From: Fusobacterium necrogenes
Lineage (GTDB): Bacteria; Fusobacteriota; Fusobacteriia; Fusobacteriales; Fusobacteriaceae
Assembly (NCBI RefSeq): GCF_900450765.1
Contig: NZ_UGGU01000003.1
Location: forward strand, 930,001-994,000
Length of the DNA stretch: 64,000 bases
Direction of reading: 5' to 3'
Under the pieces are notes generated by a model. It was not told the DNA's origin, did no database searches, and saw only the letters and a list, made by a program, of their open reading frames with translations. A program made the position numbers and the translations under genes. This document shows, one piece after another, positions 4,801 to 57,805 of this stretch. Position 1 is the first letter of the stretch; every line of letters starts with the position of its first letter.

Positions 4801-6221
4801 TCTTGAATTTTCTTCGGTATAGGTTTTTGAGGATTTACAAGTTGAGAAAATCTATCTACTATTCTATTCCCTCTTAATTTTACAGCTCCTATCTCTATTA
4901 TCTCATGCTCATGAGAGTTAAGTCCCATAGTTTCCAAGTCGAATACAACAAAATTCTCTTCTAATAGAGGTACATCTTTAGGATTTCTTACCATAAGAAC
5001 TTCATCGTCTACCATATACATCTCACAACCAAGTATAGGTTTTATATCCTTTCCCTTAGCTGCTTTATAAGCAAATGGGAAAGAGTGTACAACAGCATAA
5101 TCTGTAATAGCCACAGCAGAGTGTCCAAATTTTATAGCCTGTTTTATAATATCAGCTATATCAGTTACCCCTACCATCTCACTCATCTTACTGTGAGTGT
5201 GTAGTTCTACCATTTTTACTTCAGCTTTATCCTCCTTTTCCTCCTTTACCTTATCAAGCTTATTGATAGAGTTTATCATTATTATCTCTTCATTATCAGA
5301 GAATCTATCAGTTTGCTTTTTACCATTTATCTTTACAAAATCTCCAATTTTTATATCTAGAGGTTTATCTTTTTCTAAGAAGATTTTTGTAGTAAGAGAG
5401 GTATGGTTATCAGTTATTCTAATAGTCTGAATTACTCTATCATTTTTTATATCTCTAGACTCCATTCCAAAGATCTCTCCCTCTACTACACAAGTATCAT
5501 CATCATAGAGTTCGAAAAACTCCTCTAGTGGAATAGAACTTCCTTTAATCTCCTTAGCTTTATTAGCTGAAAAACCTCCCCCTTTAGAGAAGTTAGCACT
5601 TTTTATAACTACTTCTTGAGCCTTTGGCTTATTAGAATTTTGTTCAGCAATTTTTTTATTCTCCATATCAATCTTTGCTGAAAGAGTGATGATCTCTTTT
5701 TGTTTTTCCTCTTCTATTTTAGATACCTCTTGTGAGAAATCTCCCAATACAAACTTTACCTTGAAATTATATATTCCAAAATTTTCTAGAATTGTTTCTA
5801 GCTTCTCATCTATTTGAGAACTTCTCAAAATATCAATAGCACTCTGCTCAGCAAGAGTAATATTGATGCTCTCATTTTCAATACTTATTCTATATAGGTA
5901 TAAAAAAGATTTAGAGATAGCGTTTCTAGCTTTCAATCTTATGATTGCTCTCTCTACTATCTCTATTAATTGCTCTTTTCTTATATCATTTTCAGAAAAA
6001 CTTACTGTAAAATCTACCTCTAACTCTTTACCAAAGTTTTTCTTAATATTTTCATAGATGACATCTAATTCATTTAACTCATCAACTGAAGGAACATTAC
6101 ATATAAATCTCATCTTTTTATTTCTTTCTGAAAATATAATCTCTGTAACATCTACATTTTTTATACCCATTTTTCTAAAGATACCATCTTGTGGTTTTAT
6201 TCTTATCTCATTTCTATTCAT
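1869..6221 (-). CDS. polC: DNA polymerase III alpha subunit, PolC type
   Basis: This 1450-residue replicative polymerase has the PolC domain order: N-terminal region, OB fold (about 230-320), PHP start with ELHTHSKMSEM near residue 340, and an inserted DEDD proofreading exonuclease with FDLETMGL near 425. A cysteine cluster (CTNPEC and CPKCG) lies near 920. Palm motif PDIDLNFSGEYQ is near 975 and helix-hairpin-helix GLGGAVIDNI near 1390. It ends in QISLF, a typical beta-clamp binding peptide. The start has GGAGG at good spacing. It is the last gene of the DUF4911-khpA-rimM-trmD chain, 17 bases after the SPOUT gene. PolC is otherwise typical of low-GC Gram-positives and Fusobacteria. Confidence 0.97.
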   Translation of the reverse strand: MNRNEIRIKPQDGIFRKMGIKNVDVTEIIFSERNKKMRFICNVPSVDELNELDVIYENIKKNFGKELEVDFTVSFSENDIRKEQLIEIVERAIIRLKARNAISKSFLYLYRISIENESINITLAEQSAIDILRSSQIDEKLETILENFGIYNFKVKFVLGDFSQEVSKIEEEKQKEIITLSAKIDMENKKIAEQNSNKPKAQEVVIKSANFSKGGGFSANKAKEIKGSSIPLEEFFELYDDDTCVVEGEIFGMESRDIKNDRVIQTIRITDNHTSLTTKIFLEKDKPLDIKIGDFVKINGKKQTDRFSDNEEIIMINSINKLDKVKEEKEDKAEVKMVELHTHSKMSEMVGVTDIADIIKQAIKFGHSAVAITDYAVVHSFPFAYKAAKGKDIKPILGCEMYMVDDEVLMVRNPKDVPLLEENFVVFDLETMGLNSHEHEIIEIGAVKLRGNRIVDRFSQLVNPQKPIPKKIQELTNITQDMVDNMPTIEEVLPKFMEFVGDATMVAHNAAFDMGFIRRDVKRLLGYDYTPAIIDTLQMARDLYPDLKGYGLKNLNKVLGLSLESHHRAVDDSQATANMFIIFMERYIEKGVTNLNEITGAFPINYKKQDTHNVMVLVQNLDGLKNMYKLVSEAHIDYYGNKKPRILKSHLEKYREGLIVGSSMTVHFSNDGELTDYYMRYDYESIERSIGFYDYIELLPKGAYSEIYEDDGTGSISSFKAIEDMNRYFYNLAKERGILVTASSNVHYLDEKDYKIRSILLYGSGNVFRANQYKIDNKFYFRTTDEMLEEFSYLGKDIAREIVVTNTNLIADKIEKIKPVPDGFYPPKIDNAENIVREMTYEKAYRIYGNPLPEIVNARIERELNAIIGNGFSVLYLSAQKLVKKSLDSGYLVGSRGSVGSSLVAFMMGITEVNALYPHYICTNPECKNSEFIEREGVGIDLPEKNCPKCGKPYKRDGYSIPFEVFMGFNGDKVPDIDLNFSGEYQSEIHRYCEQMFGKENVFKAGTISTLAEKNAEGYVRKFYEEHDIKNNKAEILRLAKKCEGAKKTTGQHPGGMVVVPHDHTIYEFCPVQKPANDEKNDSITTHFDYHVMDEQLVKLDILGHDDPTTIKLLQEYTGVDIYSIPLSDPDTLKIFSSTESLGVTSEQINSVVGTFGVPEFGTPFVRQMLIDTMPKTFAELVRISGLSHGTDVWLNNAQEFIRKKQATLSQVITVRDDIMNYLIDQGIEKGTAFKIMEFVRKGQPTKNPEGWKVYSDLMKEHNVAEWYIESCRRIKYMFPKGHAVAYVMMAMRIAYFKVHYPLAFYAAYLSRKAEDFDYEIMGNSKVAQSHLEILSKEAKLDVKKKTEMAICEIIVEMYARGIEFLPIDIYRSEGIKFIIEDGKIRVPLIALSGLGGAVIDNIIKEREESKFLSFEDFKRRTKASQTTIDKLKTIKAIDSLNETNQISLF

Positions 6222-42387: not shown

Positions 42388-42478
42388 GTATCTTCCATCT
42401 GTCTGGAATTAGCACCACATCTATAAGATAGGTTGCTGAAACGTCATAGAGCCAGTCTCTCAGTTTCTCTTGATGGTT
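42388..42478 (-). promoter_or_regulatory. SAM-I (S-box) riboswitch
   Basis: On the minus strand the conserved S-box blocks are all present: ATCAAGAGA, GACTGGC, a GTTTCAGCAACC block, GTGGTGCTAATTCC and TGGAAGATA. Binding of S-adenosylmethionine should favour the downstream terminator and lower expression of metNIQ and the M20 peptidase. Confidence 0.95.
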
Positions 42479-42498
42479 TGTTTTTTGTTGTTGGGGTA

Positions 42499-42534: not shown

Positions 42535-45276
42535 TTATAATAATTCTCCATATTTTTTAATATATTTTTTCTTAACAAAAGTAACTACTGACATATAAGC
42601 CACTATTGTCAATACAAGCCCAAACCAAAATACTAGAGGAAGAGATGTAAGCCCTAAATAGATTCCAAGTCTAGTATAAGGAATGATTGAAACAAATATT
42701 ACTCCTAAAGTTGTAAGAACTATAACAGGTAAAGAGGCAATACTTTGAATAAATGATAACTTAGGAGTTCTTATCATATGGATAACTAAAGTTTGTGACC
42801 ACATAGACTCAATAAACCAACCTGTTTGGAACATAGCTTCATAAGCTGTTCTCAATGTTTCTTGCTCAACAGGGATAGAGTTGTATAGCACTCCATTCGA
42901 TACAAACATAGGACAGATAACAAAATACATCAATAAGTATGTAGTTATATCAAATATAGAACTAGTAGGTCCTATCCATAACATAAATTTTCCAATAGAG
43001 CTTGCTTCCCATTTTCTAGGAATTTTTAAAAACTCTTTATCTACATTATCCCAAGGGATAGCAGTACAAGATAGATCATAGATTAGATTTAATAGAATTA
43101 AGTGTATACTCATCATTGGTAAAAATGGTAAGAAAGCACTAGCAGCTAATACTGAAAACATATTACCAAAGTTAGATGAAGCAGTCATCTTAATATACTT
43201 AATCATATTTGCATAAGTTTTACGTCCCTCAATAATTCCTTCTTCTAATACCATTAAATCTTTTTCAAGTAAGATTATATCAGCAGATTCTTTAGCTATA
43301 TCCACAGCTGTATCAACAGATATTCCTATATCTGCCTCTTTCATAGCAGCAGCATCATTTATTCCATCTCCCATAAATCCAACTGTATGTCCATTCTCTT
43401 TTAAGATTTGAACAATTCTAGTTTTTTGCATAGGAGATAGTTTTGCAAATATATCTACCTTTTCAACAACAGTTGAAAGTTCTTCATCACTCATATTATC
43501 TATATCTGAGCCAAGTAAAATATTTTTACTATTAAGTCCAACTTTTCCACAAATACTTTTAGTAACTTTATCATTATCACCAGTTAAAACCTTAGTTCTT
43601 ACCCCATACTCTTTTAGAGCAGCAATAGCTTTAGCAGTTGTAGGTTTAGGTGGGTCTAAGAAAGCAAGATATCCCATAAGTACCATATCCACTTCATCTT
43701 TTACTCCAAAACTATCCACAGGAGATGGATTAGTTTTTTGAGCAAGAGCAATAACACGAAGTCCGTCTTCATTGAAATTTTCAACAGTTTTTAAAACTTC
43801 CTCTTTTATCTCATCAGTAAGTAAAACTATCTCACCTTTAAACTCTGTATATTTACAAATAGATAACATCTCTTCAACAGCACCTTTAGTTATCATCTGT
43901 CTTTTTCCTGATTTATCTTCTACCACCACAGTCATACGACGACGAGAAAAGTCAAAAGGAATCTCATCAACTTTTGTATATATCTTTTCTAATTCTAAAA
44001 GAGAACTATCCCTTTCTCCCTCTTCATGAGTTTTTTCAATAATAGATAAATCTAACAGATTTTTTAATCCTGTTTGAAACCAGCTATTTAAAAAAGCATG
44101 ACGTAATACTCTATTATTTTCATTTCCATGTACGTCCATATGATACTCTAGAACTACCTTGTCTAAAGTGATAGTTCCTGTCTTATCTGTACAAAGGATA
44201 TCCATTGAACCAAAGTTTTGAATAGAGTTAAGATTTTTAACGATAGTTTTCTTTTTAGCCATAGATACAGCACCTTTAGCTAGACAAGTTGTAACTATCA
44301 TAGGTAACATCTCTGGAGTAAGTCCTACTGCTATTGAGATGGCAAATAGTAGAGCTTGTACCCAGCTTCCTTTTGTAAATCCATTTACAAAGAATACAAT
44401 AGGAACCATTACCATCATAAAACGGATAAGTAACCATGAAACAGAATTGACACCTTTTTCAAAACTAGATTCAATTTTTTCATCTGATACTAAAGTTTTA
44501 GATATAGAACCAAGAAGTGTATTATCTCCAGTAGAGATAACAACTCCAATAGCTGAGCCACTGATAACATTGCTTCCCATAAAAGCTATGTTATTTAACT
44601 CTGTTACAGCAAGTTTATCATCTAGTATAATTTGAGCTTTTTTCTCCACAGGCTCACTTTCACCTGTTAGAGAAGATTGGCTGATAAAGAAGTCTTTACA
44701 TTCAATTATTCTTAAATCAGCAGGAATAATATCCCCAGCAGCAAGATAAACTATATCTCCGATTACTACATCTTCTAAAGGAATCTCCTTTTTATTTTCT
44801 CCAAATCTTTTAACTGAAGTAGTAGTAGTTATCATAGCAGATAAGCTTTCAGCAGCATTATTACTTTTTTCCTCTTGAATAAAACGTAATAATCCAGAGA
44901 TAGTAACCATAGTAGTGATAATGATTACTGTAATAGGAGAAAAATCTTCTGGAGTGTTGCTGTACCAAGGAATAATCATATCAGTAACAGTAGACACAAG
45001 GGCTAGACAGAAAAGTACAGCTGTAAAAGGATTTACAAAAGCCTCTACTATTTTTTTGAAGAATGATTTTTTCTTTCCGTGAGTTATTATATTCTTTCCA
45101 AATATATCTAAGCTTTTTTCAGCTTGCTCCTTAGTAACTCCCTCTAAAGATGTATCTAATTTTTTTAGTAACTCCTCTGTTCCTAGAGAAGAGTACACTC
45201 TTATTTTTTTGTTTTCTTCATCTTTTAGATTTCTTGAGTTGATTTCAGCTTTGTTAATGTTTTTAAATTTTTTCAT
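42535..45276 (-). CDS. mgtA: Magnesium-importing P-type ATPase
   Basis: This P3B ATPase of 913 residues begins [12 protein letters not shown] at ATG 45274-45276 with AGGAGG before it. Motifs: [21 protein letters not shown] phosphorylation site, [17 protein letters not shown] and [17 protein letters not shown]. The C-terminal six-helix domain carries [15 protein letters not shown], typical of MgtA/MgtB. It imports Mg2+. Expression is under the M-box at 45500-45693 and possibly the leader ORF at 45352-45432. Confidence 0.96.
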
Positions 45277-45351
45277 TGCTATCCTCCTTAATTTTAAAAT
45301 ATCTTTAAAGCTTAAACAGGGTAGCATATATTTAAAAGAACAAGGGCGAAC

Positions 45352-45432
45352 TTAAAAACAGACATAGAAAAAGATGTCTGATAAATATTGAACTTTTAAA
45401 TACATACTACTGCCACTATTTTCTACGTCCAT
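45352..45432 (-). CDS. 26-residue leader ORF before mgtA
   Basis: AGGAGGTGCAAA precedes an ATG that opens a 26-codon frame MDVENSGSSMYLKVQYLSDI ending FFYVCF. It sits between the M-box terminator and mgtA. Its last codons form the hairpin at 45359-45380, followed by TTTTT. Such an arrangement fits translation-coupled attenuation, where ribosome position decides if the hairpin forms. A membrane micropeptide is the alternative. I do not recognise the peptide. Confidence 0.6.
   Translation of the reverse strand: MDVENSGSSMYLKVQYLSDIFFYVCF
45354..45380 (-). terminator. Hairpin with T-run inside the mgtA leader ORF
   Basis: On the minus strand CAGACAT (45374-45380) and ATGTCTG (45359-45365) form a stem with an 8-base loop, followed by TTTTT (45354-45358). 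It overlaps the last codons of the leader ORF. Confidence 0.65.
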
Positions 45433-45466
45433 TTTGCACCTCCTAAAAAATCAAGAAAATAAAAAA

Positions 45467-45496
45467 CTCCATCCCAATTCAAACAGTGGTATGGAG
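45467..45496 (-). terminator. Terminator of the M-box riboswitch
   Basis: CTCCATACCA with TGGGATGGAG (minus strand, 45487-45496 and 45467-45476) form a stem followed by TTTTTT. TACCACTGTTTG (45480-45491) can instead pair with CAAACGGTGGTA (45535-45546), giving an antiterminator. Confidence 0.8.
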
Positions 45497-45499
45497 TAA

Positions 45500-45693
45500 T
45501 ATCCAAATAAATATAAAAAATAAAAACTATTTTTTACCACCGTTTGAGCTTCAACTCTGTAGGGCGGTGAAGTTACATTAGATAACACCTTGGTTTCGAT
45601 GTTGCCTGTTCAAACCAGCGCATAGTGTCTCCACTATTTTGCGGCAGTAACCCATATCCCTATAGTAGCCTTACTTACCGGAACTATTAAATT
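45500..45693 (-). promoter_or_regulatory. M-box magnesium riboswitch
   Basis: The minus-strand leader has the ykoK/M-box blocks in order: GGTAAGTAAGGCTACTATA, GGGTTACTGCCGC, a GTGGAGACAC hairpin, GCTGGTTTGAACAGGCAA, AACCAAGGTGTTATCTAATG and the late CACCGCCCTACAG region. High Mg2+ should stabilise the aptamer and cause termination at 45467-45496, so mgtA is made when Mg2+ is low. Confidence 0.85.
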
Positions 45694-45699
45694 GTCTAA

Positions 45700-45728
45700 A
45701 GTATAGTATAATTTTTTTTATTTGTCAA
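45700..45728 (-). promoter_or_regulatory. Promoter of mgtA
   Basis: TTGACA (45723-45728) and TATACT (45700-45705) on the minus strand are 17 bases apart; transcription would begin about 45693, at the M-box. Confidence 0.8.
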
Positions 45729-45736
45729 GTAAAAAT

Positions 45737-47275
45737 TTATTTTACTTTTTCTAAAATTTTGAAAACTTCCTTCATTTCAGAGTTTAAGAGCATCTTTCTA
45801 GTTTCAAAAATTTCTCTATAATAATCAGTTTTTTCTTTTTGAGGAAGATAATTTTTATTAATCTCTAAATTATTTTTTATTACCTCTTTTAAATCTTTTA
45901 TATCTCCAAGAGCATAAGCCACAGTTAATACATTCATCATTACAGCTCCGCCAGATTTCTTAAAAGTCTTAGTTTTGGTATTTAGCATATCAGCTTTTAT
46001 TTGATTCCAAAGGTTACTTTTGCTTCCACCCTCAGTTATAGTTATCTCCTCTAGGGATACTCCACCTTTTTTATATATATCTGTGATTCCAATATAGTCG
46101 TATCCAATAGCTTCTAGTACAGCTCTCCATAGTGTAGCTTGGTCAGTATCCATTCCCATATTTAAAAAACAACCAGAGGCATTTGCTAATTCTCCAACTC
46201 CCTTAGTGAGATATGGTAAAAATAAAACTCCATTAGCTCCAGTTGGAATTTTTTCTGCTGCTTTAGAAAGTTTATCGAAATATGAATCCTCACCAACTTT
46301 ATCACAGATATTATCTCTAAACCATCTAAGAGCAAGTCCACCTGTTCTTATAAATCCCCAATAAAAATATGAGTTTTCTAAAGTTCCACTATTAAAAATC
46401 AATCCATTTTCTGGTTTGCTCAACTCCTCTTTTATTCCATCAGTTGATACACAGAACATAGCACAAGTACCAGCTACATCAGCAGCCATATTTTTCTCTA
46501 AAAGCCCACAACCTAACATAGATTGCATAGTATCTCCAGCACCAGCACAGATAGGAATACCTGCTGGTAATCCTGTAAACTCTGCCATCTCTTGAGAAAG
46601 GTTTCCAATTATATCCCAAGGTTTTACTATTTTAGGAAGATATTTTTTATCTATATTTAAAATTTTAAGTTGTTCATCTGACCACTCTTTTTTATAGACA
46701 TTGTATCCTAGTCCCCAACCAGATATAGTTCCCCAATCTATAAAAGCATCTTTAGGAGATAATCCAGCTAGGTTCATCAAAATATATGGAGCATTGTGAA
46801 CAAATTTACAACCATTTTCTAGAAATTTAGTATTTTTTAAAAACCATCTAGCTATCATAGCTGGAAACATACAGTTAGGAGTAGGATTTCCAGTTTCTTT
46901 AGCCCAGATATCAAAATTTTTACTTAAAAGCTCCTCTACATCTTTTTGGCAACGAGAATCTAAGTAGTTTACATATGGTGTTATAGGTTTACCATTTTCA
47001 TCTATTCCAGCAATACCACAGATTATTCCATCACCAAAAATTCCTCTCACTTCACTTGGATTTAAGCCTTTTTCCTTCATCTGTGTAACACAATCTCTTA
47101 TCCCTTTTTTACAAGCTTCTAAATATTCATTTACATCCATCTCTACCCAACCAGATTGAGGATAATTGAGAGTAGTAGGATAAGATTTTTCAGCTACACA
47201 CTCCATTTCTAATGAATAGATAGCAACCTTAACACTTTGAGTTCCAGCATCAAATCCAATATAATATTTATTCAT
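45737..47275 (-). CDS. FGGY-family carbohydrate kinase behind an FMN riboswitch
   Basis: This 512-residue kinase has the FGGY fold: phosphate loop YIGFDAGTQSVKVAIYS at the N-terminus, AGAGDTMQSMLGCG, GTCAMFC and the second-half signature ITEGGSKSNLWNQIKADML. It resembles xylulokinase/ribulokinase relatives. It has ATG 47273-47275 with TGGAGG. It is transcribed alone, directly from the FMN riboswitch, so FMN should reduce its expression. Its sugar is unknown. A pentulose or ribitol-like substrate would link it to flavin supply, since ribulose-5-phosphate is a riboflavin precursor. Confidence 0.9.
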   Translation of the reverse strand: MNKYYIGFDAGTQSVKVAIYSLEMECVAEKSYPTTLNYPQSGWVEMDVNEYLEACKKGIRDCVTQMKEKGLNPSEVRGIFGDGIICGIAGIDENGKPITPYVNYLDSRCQKDVEELLSKNFDIWAKETGNPTPNCMFPAMIARWFLKNTKFLENGCKFVHNAPYILMNLAGLSPKDAFIDWGTISGWGLGYNVYKKEWSDEQLKILNIDKKYLPKIVKPWDIIGNLSQEMAEFTGLPAGIPICAGAGDTMQSMLGCGLLEKNMAADVAGTCAMFCVSTDGIKEELSKPENGLIFNSGTLENSYFYWGFIRTGGLALRWFRDNICDKVGEDSYFDKLSKAAEKIPTGANGVLFLPYLTKGVGELANASGCFLNMGMDTDQATLWRAVLEAIGYDYIGITDIYKKGGVSLEEITITEGGSKSNLWNQIKADMLNTKTKTFKKSGGAVMMNVLTVAYALGDIKDLKEVIKNNLEINKNYLPQKEKTDYYREIFETRKMLLNSEMKEVFKILEKVK

Positions 47276-47330
47276 AACAACCTCCATAAAAATTAAATAT
47301 TTTTAATGGAAAACTTAAAGATAACTATTA

Positions 47331-47352
47331 AAAAAACCCAGAAAACTCTGGG
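47331..47352 (-). terminator. Terminator of the FMN riboswitch
   Basis: On the minus strand CCCAG (47348-47352) pairs with CTGGG (47337-47341) around AGTTTT, followed by a T-rich run (47331-47336). It lies between the aptamer and the kinase gene. Confidence 0.75.
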
Positions 47353-47381
47353 CAAAATAAACGAAAAAATAGTATATCTTT

Positions 47382-47496
47382 TCTTCTTCCATCCAGACTA
47401 TACTGTCGGTTTTGGAATTTCACCAAATCAGAATTAAAAAATTCTCGTGGACTATAACCACCGGTCGGGAATTGTTACCTCACCCTGCCCTGAAGA
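47382..47496 (-). promoter_or_regulatory. FMN riboswitch (RFN element)
   Basis: On the minus strand the RFN blocks are all present: TCTTCAGGGCAGGGTGAGG, ATTCCCGACCGGTGG, a TAGTCCACGAG block, GGTGAAATTCCAAAACCGAC, AGTATAGTCTGGATGG and closing GAAGAAG. FMN binding normally represses flavin synthesis or import genes. Here the only downstream gene is the FGGY kinase. Confidence 0.96.
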
Positions 47497-47517
47497 TAAA
47501 ATATTCTTATTAATTTG

Positions 47518-47546
47518 AATATAACATTTTTAAATCTAATTGTCAA
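47518..47546 (-). promoter_or_regulatory. Promoter of the FMN riboswitch transcript
   Basis: TTGACA (47541-47546) and TATATT (47518-47523) on the minus strand are 17 bases apart. Confidence 0.8.
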
Positions 47547-47644
47547 TATAATACTCAAAAGTTCTGAAAATGACATATTATTATGACAAAATTAAAATAT
47601 AAACTTATGGTTGCAAAAAAGTATGTATATAGGAGGATATATTT

Positions 47645-47782
47645 AATCAAAAAGATTATTATTATGCTCACTGTATAAAGAGAGATTATGCTCTTGGAGT
47701 TGGGATTGCGGTGGAGTTTGATAAAAGATATAATACGAGAGATAGATTATTAAAACTAGCTGAAGAAAAGTCGAAACTTTAG
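47645..47782 (+). pseudogene. Macro-domain-like gene fragment
   Basis: The frame reads NQKDYYYAHCIKRDYALGVG then IAVEFDKRYNTRDRLLKLA before a stop. This looks like the start of an ADP-ribose-binding macro domain (AHCISxDxxLGAGIAxxF). No start codon is in frame after the good AGGAGG at 47631-47636, and the rest of the domain is missing. A broken remnant. Confidence 0.5.
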
Positions 47783-47869
47783 ATAAAAAATATATAGAAA
47801 TATAGAATGTATTTAACTTGATAACTAAGGAGAAATAATTAAAAATTGACTAAAAATAAAATTTATTAC

Positions 47870-56484: not shown

Positions 56485-56513
56485 TTGCTTTTTAATTTTT
56501 AATATGCTAAAAT
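56485..56513 (+). promoter_or_regulatory. Promoter of the fluoride riboswitch transcript
   Basis: TTGCTT (56485-56490) and TAAAAT (56508-56513) are 17 bases apart; transcription would begin close to 56520, at the aptamer start. Confidence 0.65.
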
Positions 56514-56520
56514 AAATTAA

Positions 56521-56605
56521 TGGGAATGAAGTTCTCCCTTGGTATAAACCTAAACTGCTTATTAGCTGATGACTTCTACTTTAGGTAGAAGTATCAGCTT
56601 TTTTA
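56521..56605 (+). promoter_or_regulatory. Fluoride riboswitch (crcB motif) with terminator
   Basis: GGGAATGAAGTTCTCCC followed by ATAAACCTAAACTGC and AGCTGATGACTTCTAC match the crcB-motif aptamer pattern (hairpin GTTCnCC, then GCT-x-ATGRCTTCTAC). The last part also forms the left arm of a long terminator: AGCTGAT and ACTTCTAC (56564-56579) with GTAGAAGT and ATCAGCT (56585-56599), then TTTTTT. Fluoride binding should prevent the terminator and switch on the antiporter. Confidence 0.88.
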
Positions 56606-56632: not shown

Positions 56633-57805
56633 ATGTTATTTAGTTTAGCTCTTATCTTTTTGTGTGGAATGCTATTAGGAGGTATTTTTACAAAATTAAA
56701 ACTTCCAGCACTCCTTGGAATGTTACTCACTGGTATTATCTTGGGTCCATATGTTCTAAATTTACTAGATCCAAGTATACTTAATATTTCCGAAGACTTA
56801 AGACAAATTGCTCTTATTATAATTTTGACTAGAGCTGGACTTAATTTAGATATTGAAGATTTAAAAAAAGTAGGTCGCCCAGCTTTTCTTATGTGTTTTA
56901 TTCCAGCTACTTTTGAAATTATTGGTATGCTTATATTAGCTCCTAAACTTTTAGGATTGTCACTTCTAGACTCTGCTGTACTTGGAACCGTCATAGCTGC
57001 TGTTTCTCCAGCTATAATCGTTCCAAAAATGCTAAGACTCATCGAAGAAGGTTATGATAAAAAGAAAAAGGTTCCTCAACTGATTATGGCTGGTGCTTCA
57101 GTCGACGATATATTTGTAATTGTCCTCTTTACAGCTTTTAGTAAATTAGCAACTGGTAAAAGTATACTTATAACAGATTTTATAAAAATTCCTAGTTCTA
57201 TAATCTCTGGTTTTATAGTAGGAGCTATTATAGGTAAACTACTAGCTCTATTTTTCAAAAAAATACATCTCCGTGATAGTATAAAAGTAATTATTATTTT
57301 AAGTATCTCCTTTCTTTTAGTTACATTAGAAAAAGTAAATACTGGAATATTTACTTTTTCTGCTCTTTTAGCTATAATGACAATGGGAATAGTAATTCAA
57401 AAGTTCAAAAAAGAAGTAGCTACAAGACTTTCATCTAAATTTTCAAAACTTTGGATTGCAAGCGAACTCATGTTATTTGTTTTAGTAGGTGCTAATGTAA
57501 ATATATCCTATGCACTTAGCTCTAGTTTAACAAGTATCTTTTTAATTTTTGGAGTCATCATTTTTCGTATATTAGGAGTTTTTTTATCACTTTTAGGTAC
57601 AAATTTAAACTATAAAGAACGTCTATTTACTATGATTGCTTATTCACCTAAAGCAACTGTACAAGCTGCTATTGGATCTATTCCTTTAACAATGGGATTG
57701 GCTTGTGGAGATATAGTTCTTACAATCGCTATTCTTTCTATTTTAATTACAGCACCTTTAGGGGCTTTTGCTATTGATTCAAGTTATAAAAAACTCCTCT
57801 CTTAA
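56633..57805 (+). CDS. Cation/proton antiporter under fluoride control
   Basis: This 390-residue membrane protein has about twelve helices. It begins SLALIFLCGMLLGGIFTKLKLPALLGMLLTGI, the CPA-type N-terminus, and has DD in AGASVDDIFVIVLFTAF (near residue 158), a pair typical of electrogenic exchangers. RAGLNLDIEDL and SPKATVQAAIGSIPLTMG are other family marks. A role in fluoride tolerance or ion balance is inferred from the riboswitch; antiporters of this kind are known in fluoride regulons. Ribosome site AAAGGAG. Confidence 0.9.
   Translation: MLFSLALIFLCGMLLGGIFTKLKLPALLGMLLTGIILGPYVLNLLDPSILNISEDLRQIALIIILTRAGLNLDIEDLKKVGRPAFLMCFIPATFEIIGMLILAPKLLGLSLLDSAVLGTVIAAVSPAIIVPKMLRLIEEGYDKKKKVPQLIMAGASVDDIFVIVLFTAFSKLATGKSILITDFIKIPSSIISGFIVGAIIGKLLALFFKKIHLRDSIKVIIILSISFLLVTLEKVNTGIFTFSALLAIMTMGIVIQKFKKEVATRLSSKFSKLWIASELMLFVLVGANVNISYALSSSLTSIFLIFGVIIFRILGVFLSLLGTNLNYKERLFTMIAYSPKATVQAAIGSIPLTMGLACGDIVLTIAILSILITAPLGAFAIDSSYKKLLS

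Follow-up and report, generated by a model that had tools for sequence, protein, structure and literature searches.

The window, a 64,000 nt stretch of the genome of Fusobacterium necrogenes (G000), carries on its minus strand a gene for an FGGY-family kinase preceded by a complete FMN riboswitch (RFN element) and followed by an mgtA-type gene with a riboswitch of its own. The features of this locus, in window coordinates, are:

47518-47546, minus strand: promoter-like TTGACA-17 nt-TATATT (11/12 consensus matches)
47377-47501, minus strand: complete FMN riboswitch aptamer (RFN element, RF00050), from the covariance model
47393-47397, minus strand: candidate antiterminator, a UCUGG within the 3′ portion of the aptamer that could pair with CCAGA (47351-47347) of the terminator's 5′ arm
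47330-47353, minus strand: intrinsic terminator between aptamer and kinase, with a 7-bp stem GCCCAGA...TCTGGGT (47353-47336) and a T tail
45737-47275, minus strand: FGGY-family kinase gene, 512 aa (coding 47275-45740, stop 45739-45737), a candidate RibB-bypass kinase
45528-45689, minus strand: M-box (Mg2+) riboswitch of the next gene (95.6 bits)
42535-45327, minus strand: MgtA-type P-type ATPase, by sequence resemblance, the downstream neighbor (ORF as listed; true start probably nearer 45279)

Riboswitch leader and gene layout

The original prediction of a complete RFN aptamer, with promoter and terminator, ahead of a lone kinase was borne out in each of its parts, and the coordinates given for it begin precisely at the -35 box and end with the stop codon. 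A covariance search scored the leader as RFN with 109.4 bits (gathering score 66.2 bits; E 1.5e-24) over model positions 1-138 of 138, and RFN elements occur at the equivalent position in two other fusobacterial genomes, G019 (109.4 bits) and G023 (105.4 bits). Pattern scans alone returned numbers close to chance (13 promoter-like sites vs. 11.6 expected; 1 terminator vs. 1.0 expected), but the promoter, aptamer and terminator are conserved in these two genomes, and the three leaders can be aligned across all three elements. The promoter-like site is conserved in the leader of G019 and, less exactly, in that of G023, while the terminator stem-loop (-10.6 kcal/mol), conserved in the three genomes, is the sole terminator-like site with a T tail that a pattern scan found in positions 45400-47800. 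Pairing between UCUGG and CCAGA is possible in all three leaders; however, folding of the unliganded RNA favored the terminator fold by 6.7 kcal/mol over the antiterminator fold, and we therefore regard the antiterminator as a candidate, put forward on complementarity. An expression platform is thus present between aptamer and kinase, formed by a conserved terminator and a candidate competing structure. RFN elements associated with a terminator are known to act in the OFF direction; likewise, this riboswitch would turn off the kinase gene by transcription attenuation at high FMN.

The start codon of the kinase is probably at 47275, because an alternative ATG at 47287 overlaps the ribosome binding site (GGAGG, 47285-47281). 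Since the downstream mgtA has its own M-box leader, the kinase, with its leader, constitutes a separate single-gene unit of 1.8 kb. The arrangement of the M-box ahead of mgtA is ordinary, as are those of the two other riboswitches in the window, a SAM riboswitch (42392-42479, minus strand) ahead of a MetNIQ-type transporter and a fluoride riboswitch (56513-56585, plus strand) ahead of a cation/proton-antiporter-like gene (56633-57805).

The kinase is a divergent member of the FGGY family

The deduced product contains both Pfam domains FGGY_N and FGGY_C, and its putative catalytic residue D248 aligns with the catalytic Asp of XylB and GlpK. The predicted structure (pLDDT 86.3) resembled those of glycerol and xylulose kinases (VIA Z 38-40), but the best rows of the structure search (glycerol, xylulose and gluconate kinases) were tied, and the search was discarded as a guide to the substrate. 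The protein thus shares both domains, the catalytic Asp and the fold with FGGY kinases of known substrate (XylB, GlpK, GntK, LsrK, AraB, RbtK and EryA), although it is only 20-24% identical to those with solved structures. It scored far below every NCBIfam equivalog cut-off, including those for xylulokinase (XylB; TIGR01312, 213 vs. 380 bits), glycerol kinase (GlpK; 125.5 vs. 590 bits) and the pentulose-kinase and ribulokinase models TIGR01315 (FGGY pentulose kinase, 50 vs. 408.7 bits), TIGR01234 (63 vs. 583 bits) and NF003154 (ribulokinase, 92 vs. 428 bits). The substrates of the family's closest relatives are C3-C6 sugars, polyols or gluconate.

FGGY kinases produce pentulose 5-phosphates and also accept 1-deoxyketoses; XylB, for example, phosphorylates 1-deoxy-D-xylulose. 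The signature residues of GlpK are Arg83, Glu84, Tyr135, Asp245 and Phe270 (PMC3245297). Only the Asp (D248) and one Phe are kept in the kinase family, and in the alignment the positions of R83, E84 and Y135 are occupied by Ile, Ile and Met. These replacements would produce a less polar pocket, which suits a substrate with a methyl end, such as a methyl ketone.

Distribution of the kinase and its riboswitch

A search of Fusobacteriota for RFN elements and the genes that follow them, as had been proposed, located these elements in 84 of 98 genomes, with the kinase behind RFN in three. In the loci that we read, the first RFN element heads rib genes (ribH-ribD-ribE-ribBA in the window genome, an assembly of 2.0 Mb and 99.99% completeness) and the second, where present, heads either an EamA/DMT permease of the ImpX type or the kinase, with the exception of G097. 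Like the kinase, RFN-controlled riboflavin transporters (ImpX, RibU, RibN, RibZ) are stand-alone genes behind their own RFN element; the permease of the ImpX type occupies this place in many Fusobacteriota, and in the window genome the second RFN heads a soluble kinase instead. The kinase itself was found in G000, G019 (98% identical), G023 (76%) and G037 (70%), and the order RFN-kinase-M-box-mgtA is the same in the first three, whereas no RFN precedes the kinase of G037. The neighboring genes were considered as a clue to the substrate and gave nothing useful: mgtA is under its own M-box, and in G023 the upstream lactate operon runs divergently.

A genome-wide scan retrieved 36 kinase loci, most of them 61-70% identical to the window kinase and mainly from Lachnospiraceae, Anaerotignum, Anaerostipes, Clostridium, Pelosinus and Propionispira, plus two homologs from Synergistaceae (44-46% identical). 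Comparing the results of a whole-genome covariance search over 34 kinase genomes with the kinase coordinates, we found an RFN element 76-450 nt ahead of the kinase start in 15 clostridial genomes. Additionally, in five Anaerostipes genomes (Anaerostipes-type loci L088, L090, L091 and L104, and genome G523) the kinase is the last gene of an RFN-ribD-ribE-rib(B)A-ribH operon, directly after ribH. This brings the FMN-controlled members to 23 or more, in two phyla. Sequences within the family vary very little (mean column identity of 75% among 22 members); in a tree, the fusobacterial RFN group is separate, with the backbone unresolved. The kinases are thus a distinct and tightly conserved family with a patchy presence in Fusobacteriota, Clostridia and Negativicutes. 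The control by RFN is not universal: besides G037, about 15 homologs have no RFN ahead of them, so that what had been named beforehand as a refutation, the same kinase in relatives without the element, was observed in part, whereas the association holds in G019, G023, the 15 clostridial and the five Anaerostipes genomes. A connection of the kinase with flavin supply, as first proposed, is well founded, given that the association with RFN recurs in two phyla and also within a rib operon.

In certain Lachnospiraceae, an RFN-less kinase gene has as neighbors genes for HAD phosphatases, a RuBisCO-like protein and a dehydrogenase, along with other sugar genes. At L077 (2613-10874), and also at L078 and L080, the RFN-less homolog is clustered with genes for a RuBisCO-like protein, two Cof-type HAD phosphatases, a short-chain dehydrogenase, a second FGGY kinase and a sugar-epimerase-like protein.

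The initial view that no RFN element was known ahead of such a kinase did not hold. CLJU_c14910, a carbohydrate kinase of Clostridium ljungdahlii under an FMN riboswitch, was already listed as having "no obvious role" (Gutierrez-Preciado et al., 2015; PMC4418817). It is most likely our locus L099, which is from the same species and contains a member of the kinase family with an RFN element 160 nt upstream. CLJU_c14910 was reported as one case, whereas here it belongs to a set of 23 or more RFN-controlled genes from two phyla, for which operon context and loss of RibB are described. An earlier survey of FMN regulons lists, supplements aside, biosynthesis and transport genes only, with no kinase (Sun et al., 2013; PMC3766115). 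Our literature search found no later paper on an FMN-riboswitch kinase.

Several kinase carriers lack a working RibB

RibB makes 3,4-dihydroxy-2-butanone 4-phosphate (DHBP) from ribulose 5-phosphate, and lumazine synthase (RibH) uses DHBP; to our knowledge, RibB is the only enzyme of the riboflavin pathway that uses ribulose 5-phosphate. A search with PF00926 over 38 carrier genomes gave no match in G111 (A. butyraticus), G112, G125 and G113 (Lachnospiraceae TWA4), all of which contain ribD, ribE, ribH and a ribA without the RibB half. G098 has a RibBA from which the RibB domain is deleted. In three further genomes, Lachnospiraceae-type MAGs with a fast-evolving RibB half, the RibB half of RibBA is present but altered:

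L138, 2412-3680 (G100): RibBA gene with dead RibB half
L139, 2018-3250 (G110): RibBA gene with dead RibB half
L148, 623-1873 (G104): RibBA gene with dead RibB half

The catalytic RibB motif RENEGD is changed to LENAGV or AESTGA in these proteins and the His of GHTEA to Phe, while the RibA half is intact; moreover, in comparisons among the three genomes the RibB half is 4-5 times as divergent as its RibA partner, against a ratio of 0.7-1.4 among intact RibBA proteins. Judging from these residues, the RibB half is catalytically dead; plant RIBA3 has lost DHBP synthase activity with the loss of such residues (PMC3509567). The RibB motifs are partly eroded in G101 and, as far as the start of the sequence shows, in G099. 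Among the RFN-less clusters described above, the genomes of L077, L078 and L080 are those with a truncated (G098) or eroded (G101; G099, by its first residues) RibB.

Altogether, counting absence from the whole assembly, truncation or death, RibB is gone in 8 of approximately 34 RibA-bearing carriers, most of the eight being MAGs or drafts; these losses are not independent and represent some 4-5 events (Anaerostipes, TWA4, the G100/G104/G110 clade and G098). RibB is intact in the window genome and in about two thirds of carriers, and G103 has the kinase but neither RibA nor RibB. What is new here is that several kinase carriers, most of them MAGs or drafts, keep ribD, ribE, ribA and ribH without a working RibB, as far as their sequences tell.

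A relevant case is Anaerostipes G523, which has a ribA-only rib operon with the kinase and, elsewhere, two stand-alone ribB genes under RFN control:

L167, 4871-5503, minus strand: ribB copy 1, RFN core at 5701, adjoining transposase-like genes
L168, 4558-5214, minus strand: ribB copy 2, RFN core at 5401

Transposases were recorded beside both copies in our general description, and beside the L167 copy only in the detailed annotation. Because G523 holds stand-alone ribB genes beside transposases, the draft assemblies of G111, G112, G125 and others could miss such a gene.

We estimated how frequent the absence of RibB is in the order of Anaerostipes. Among its 395 genomes, the kinase was present in 7, a ribH match in 188 and a RibB match in 184; leaving out two ribH matches below the cut-off, the ribH-positive and RibB-negative genomes were the carrier G111 and the kinase-free G248 and G424. 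The latter two were rejected as examples of RibB loss without the kinase because they also lack RibA, so that their pathway is not otherwise complete. Therefore, among about 180 kinase-free, ribH-positive genomes of the order there was no RibA-bearing genome without RibB. All RibB matches in the order had E values of 5e-76 or better, compared with about 1e-61 for dead RibB; milder erosion of the G099/G101 type (about 1e-77) would be invisible by score. A Fisher test on preliminary counts (10/33 vs. 1/178), which ignores relatedness, gave 2e-8. Within Anaerostipes (11 genomes), four of the five carriers have a ribA-only operon, whereas in the five RibB-bearing non-carriers the RibB matches are full-length and lie in reading frames of 399-445 aa, a length that corresponds to a RibBA fusion.

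A possible role of the kinase in riboflavin supply

The kinase is preceded by a riboswitch that is conserved, it occurs within rib operons, and several of its carriers have lost RibB. The FMN riboswitches found in G111 and G113 all stand ahead of rib genes, a ribU-like gene or the kinase, which leaves the kinase as the one unexplained member of the regulon. A pathway short of DHBP, together with a regulon containing one extra small-molecule kinase, suggests that the kinase could supply DHBP in one step. We tentatively propose, with a little less than even confidence, that the FMN-repressed kinase works in riboflavin supply by making DHBP, or by otherwise bypassing RibB. Most simply, it would phosphorylate a four-carbon keto-diol, (3S)-3,4-dihydroxy-2-butanone, with ATP, and the DHBP so formed would be used by RibH. 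It is also possible, if more doubtful, that the kinase thereby provides riboflavin with its four-carbon half by a second route, independent of RibB, and displaced RibB in several lineages of Lachnospirales. Conversely, an intact RibB is found in the window genome and most carriers; synthesis there does not require the kinase, which in Fusobacterium would be a supplement to RibB.

The compound 1-deoxyerythrulose, that is, dihydroxybutanone, can be formed from pyruvate and glycolaldehyde by thiamine-diphosphate enzymes, and such a condensation might, speculatively, provide the substrate; we know of no source of free dihydroxybutanone. A literature search for a dihydroxybutanone kinase in riboflavin synthesis, or for deoxyerythrulose made by DXS, found nothing relevant. 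The proposed kinase would share with RibB its product and its FMN control, but the two differ in fold and chemistry, since RibB rearranges ribulose 5-phosphate with release of formate and the kinase would only transfer phosphate. The BrbF formamidase of Sinorhizobium meliloti is a precedent for the bypass of a standard riboflavin enzyme (RibBA) by an unrecognized bacterial one, although BrbF is an unrelated protein and stands in for a GTP-branch step rather than one of the C4 branch (PMC9478397).

Catabolic-looking clusters without RFN, together with the presence of the kinase in G103, indicate that at least some members have another role, and the family probably also has a catabolic one.

Among the alternatives, RibB might have been lost or moved independently of the kinase, with separate ribB genes missed by the assemblies and the kinase having some other role in flavin supply. 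This is what the closely related G523 shows in a single contig of 2.8 Mb, with its ribA-only operon, kinase and two stand-alone ribB genes. However, the same search found no working RibB in eight other assemblies, including G113, with 3.12 of its 3.2 Mb in one scaffold, and this explanation, which we consider rather unlikely, does not account for meeting RibA-bearing genomes without RibB only among kinase carriers.

A kinase of pentuloses or ribitol supplying ribulose 5-phosphate, the substrate of RibB, at low FMN was the function first proposed. It agrees with the chemistry of FGGY kinases, with the intact RibB of most carriers, including the window genome, and with the short-chain dehydrogenase gene that follows some Lachnospiraceae homologs, reminiscent of the pairing of ribitol dehydrogenase with D-ribulokinase. 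It nonetheless fits poorly with the low scores to the pentulose-kinase and ribulokinase models, and the RFN-controlled copies have no accompanying dehydrogenase or transporter. Furthermore, ribulose 5-phosphate is already available from general pentose metabolism, and its production could not replace RibB, the enzyme that uses it, and would be useless in the carriers where RibB is lost or dead; we thus consider this function quite improbable.

The third alternative is flavin salvage, by phosphorylation of riboflavin, a flavin breakdown product or the ribityl side chain, and would agree with the FMN control of the kinase and with its occurrence in genomes containing an RFN-controlled ribU-like gene. 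In addition, Pelosinus has, immediately ahead of its kinase gene, one for an ECF S component (PF07155; L100, 5189-5722), and no RFN was found there. We judge salvage very unlikely: it leaves the loss of RibB unaccounted for, and the nearest relatives of the kinase use C3-C6 sugars, polyols or gluconate. In particular, flavokinase (RibF, PF01687) is present in G000, G019, G023 and G037, and a replacement of RibF by the kinase is not needed and was rejected. Finally, an accidental insertion of the kinase behind a duplicated RFN element, with no role in flavin metabolism, would agree with its patchy distribution (4/98 Fusobacteriota; 7/395 genomes of the Anaerostipes order) but is hardly credible and was rejected, since fusobacterial kinases that are 76% identical still have the arrangement, and it reappears in several clostridial lineages as well as within a rib operon.

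As far as we know, RibB is regarded as the sole source in bacteria of the C4 precursor of riboflavin, and bacteria are called vitamin B2 producers on the strength of having it. If the kinase replaces RibB, vitamin B2 would be made by a second chemistry, producer calls would be wrong for some gut bacteria, and the argument for RibB as a drug target would have a gap. Even with another substrate, a riboswitch-linked kinase family found in two phyla and in a rib operon would represent a concrete and assayable missing piece of flavin metabolism.

Other RFN-associated genes

The searches revealed additional genes behind RFN elements. The two RFN elements of the fusobacterial genome G097 head a permease and an ABC transporter, respectively; in the latter (L076, 502-4093), the RFN element (76 bits) is followed by genes for a periplasmic-binding protein, a putative outer-membrane protein, a BtuC/FecD-like permease and an ATPase; these genes might specify an ABC importer of the metal or B12 type that takes up flavin. 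In G105 (L127, 466-1836), an FMN riboswitch (84 bits) precedes a gene for a MATE-family transporter, which is a possible further flavin transporter. Lastly, the Anaerotignum lactatifermentans genomes G107 and G128 contain four RFN elements each.
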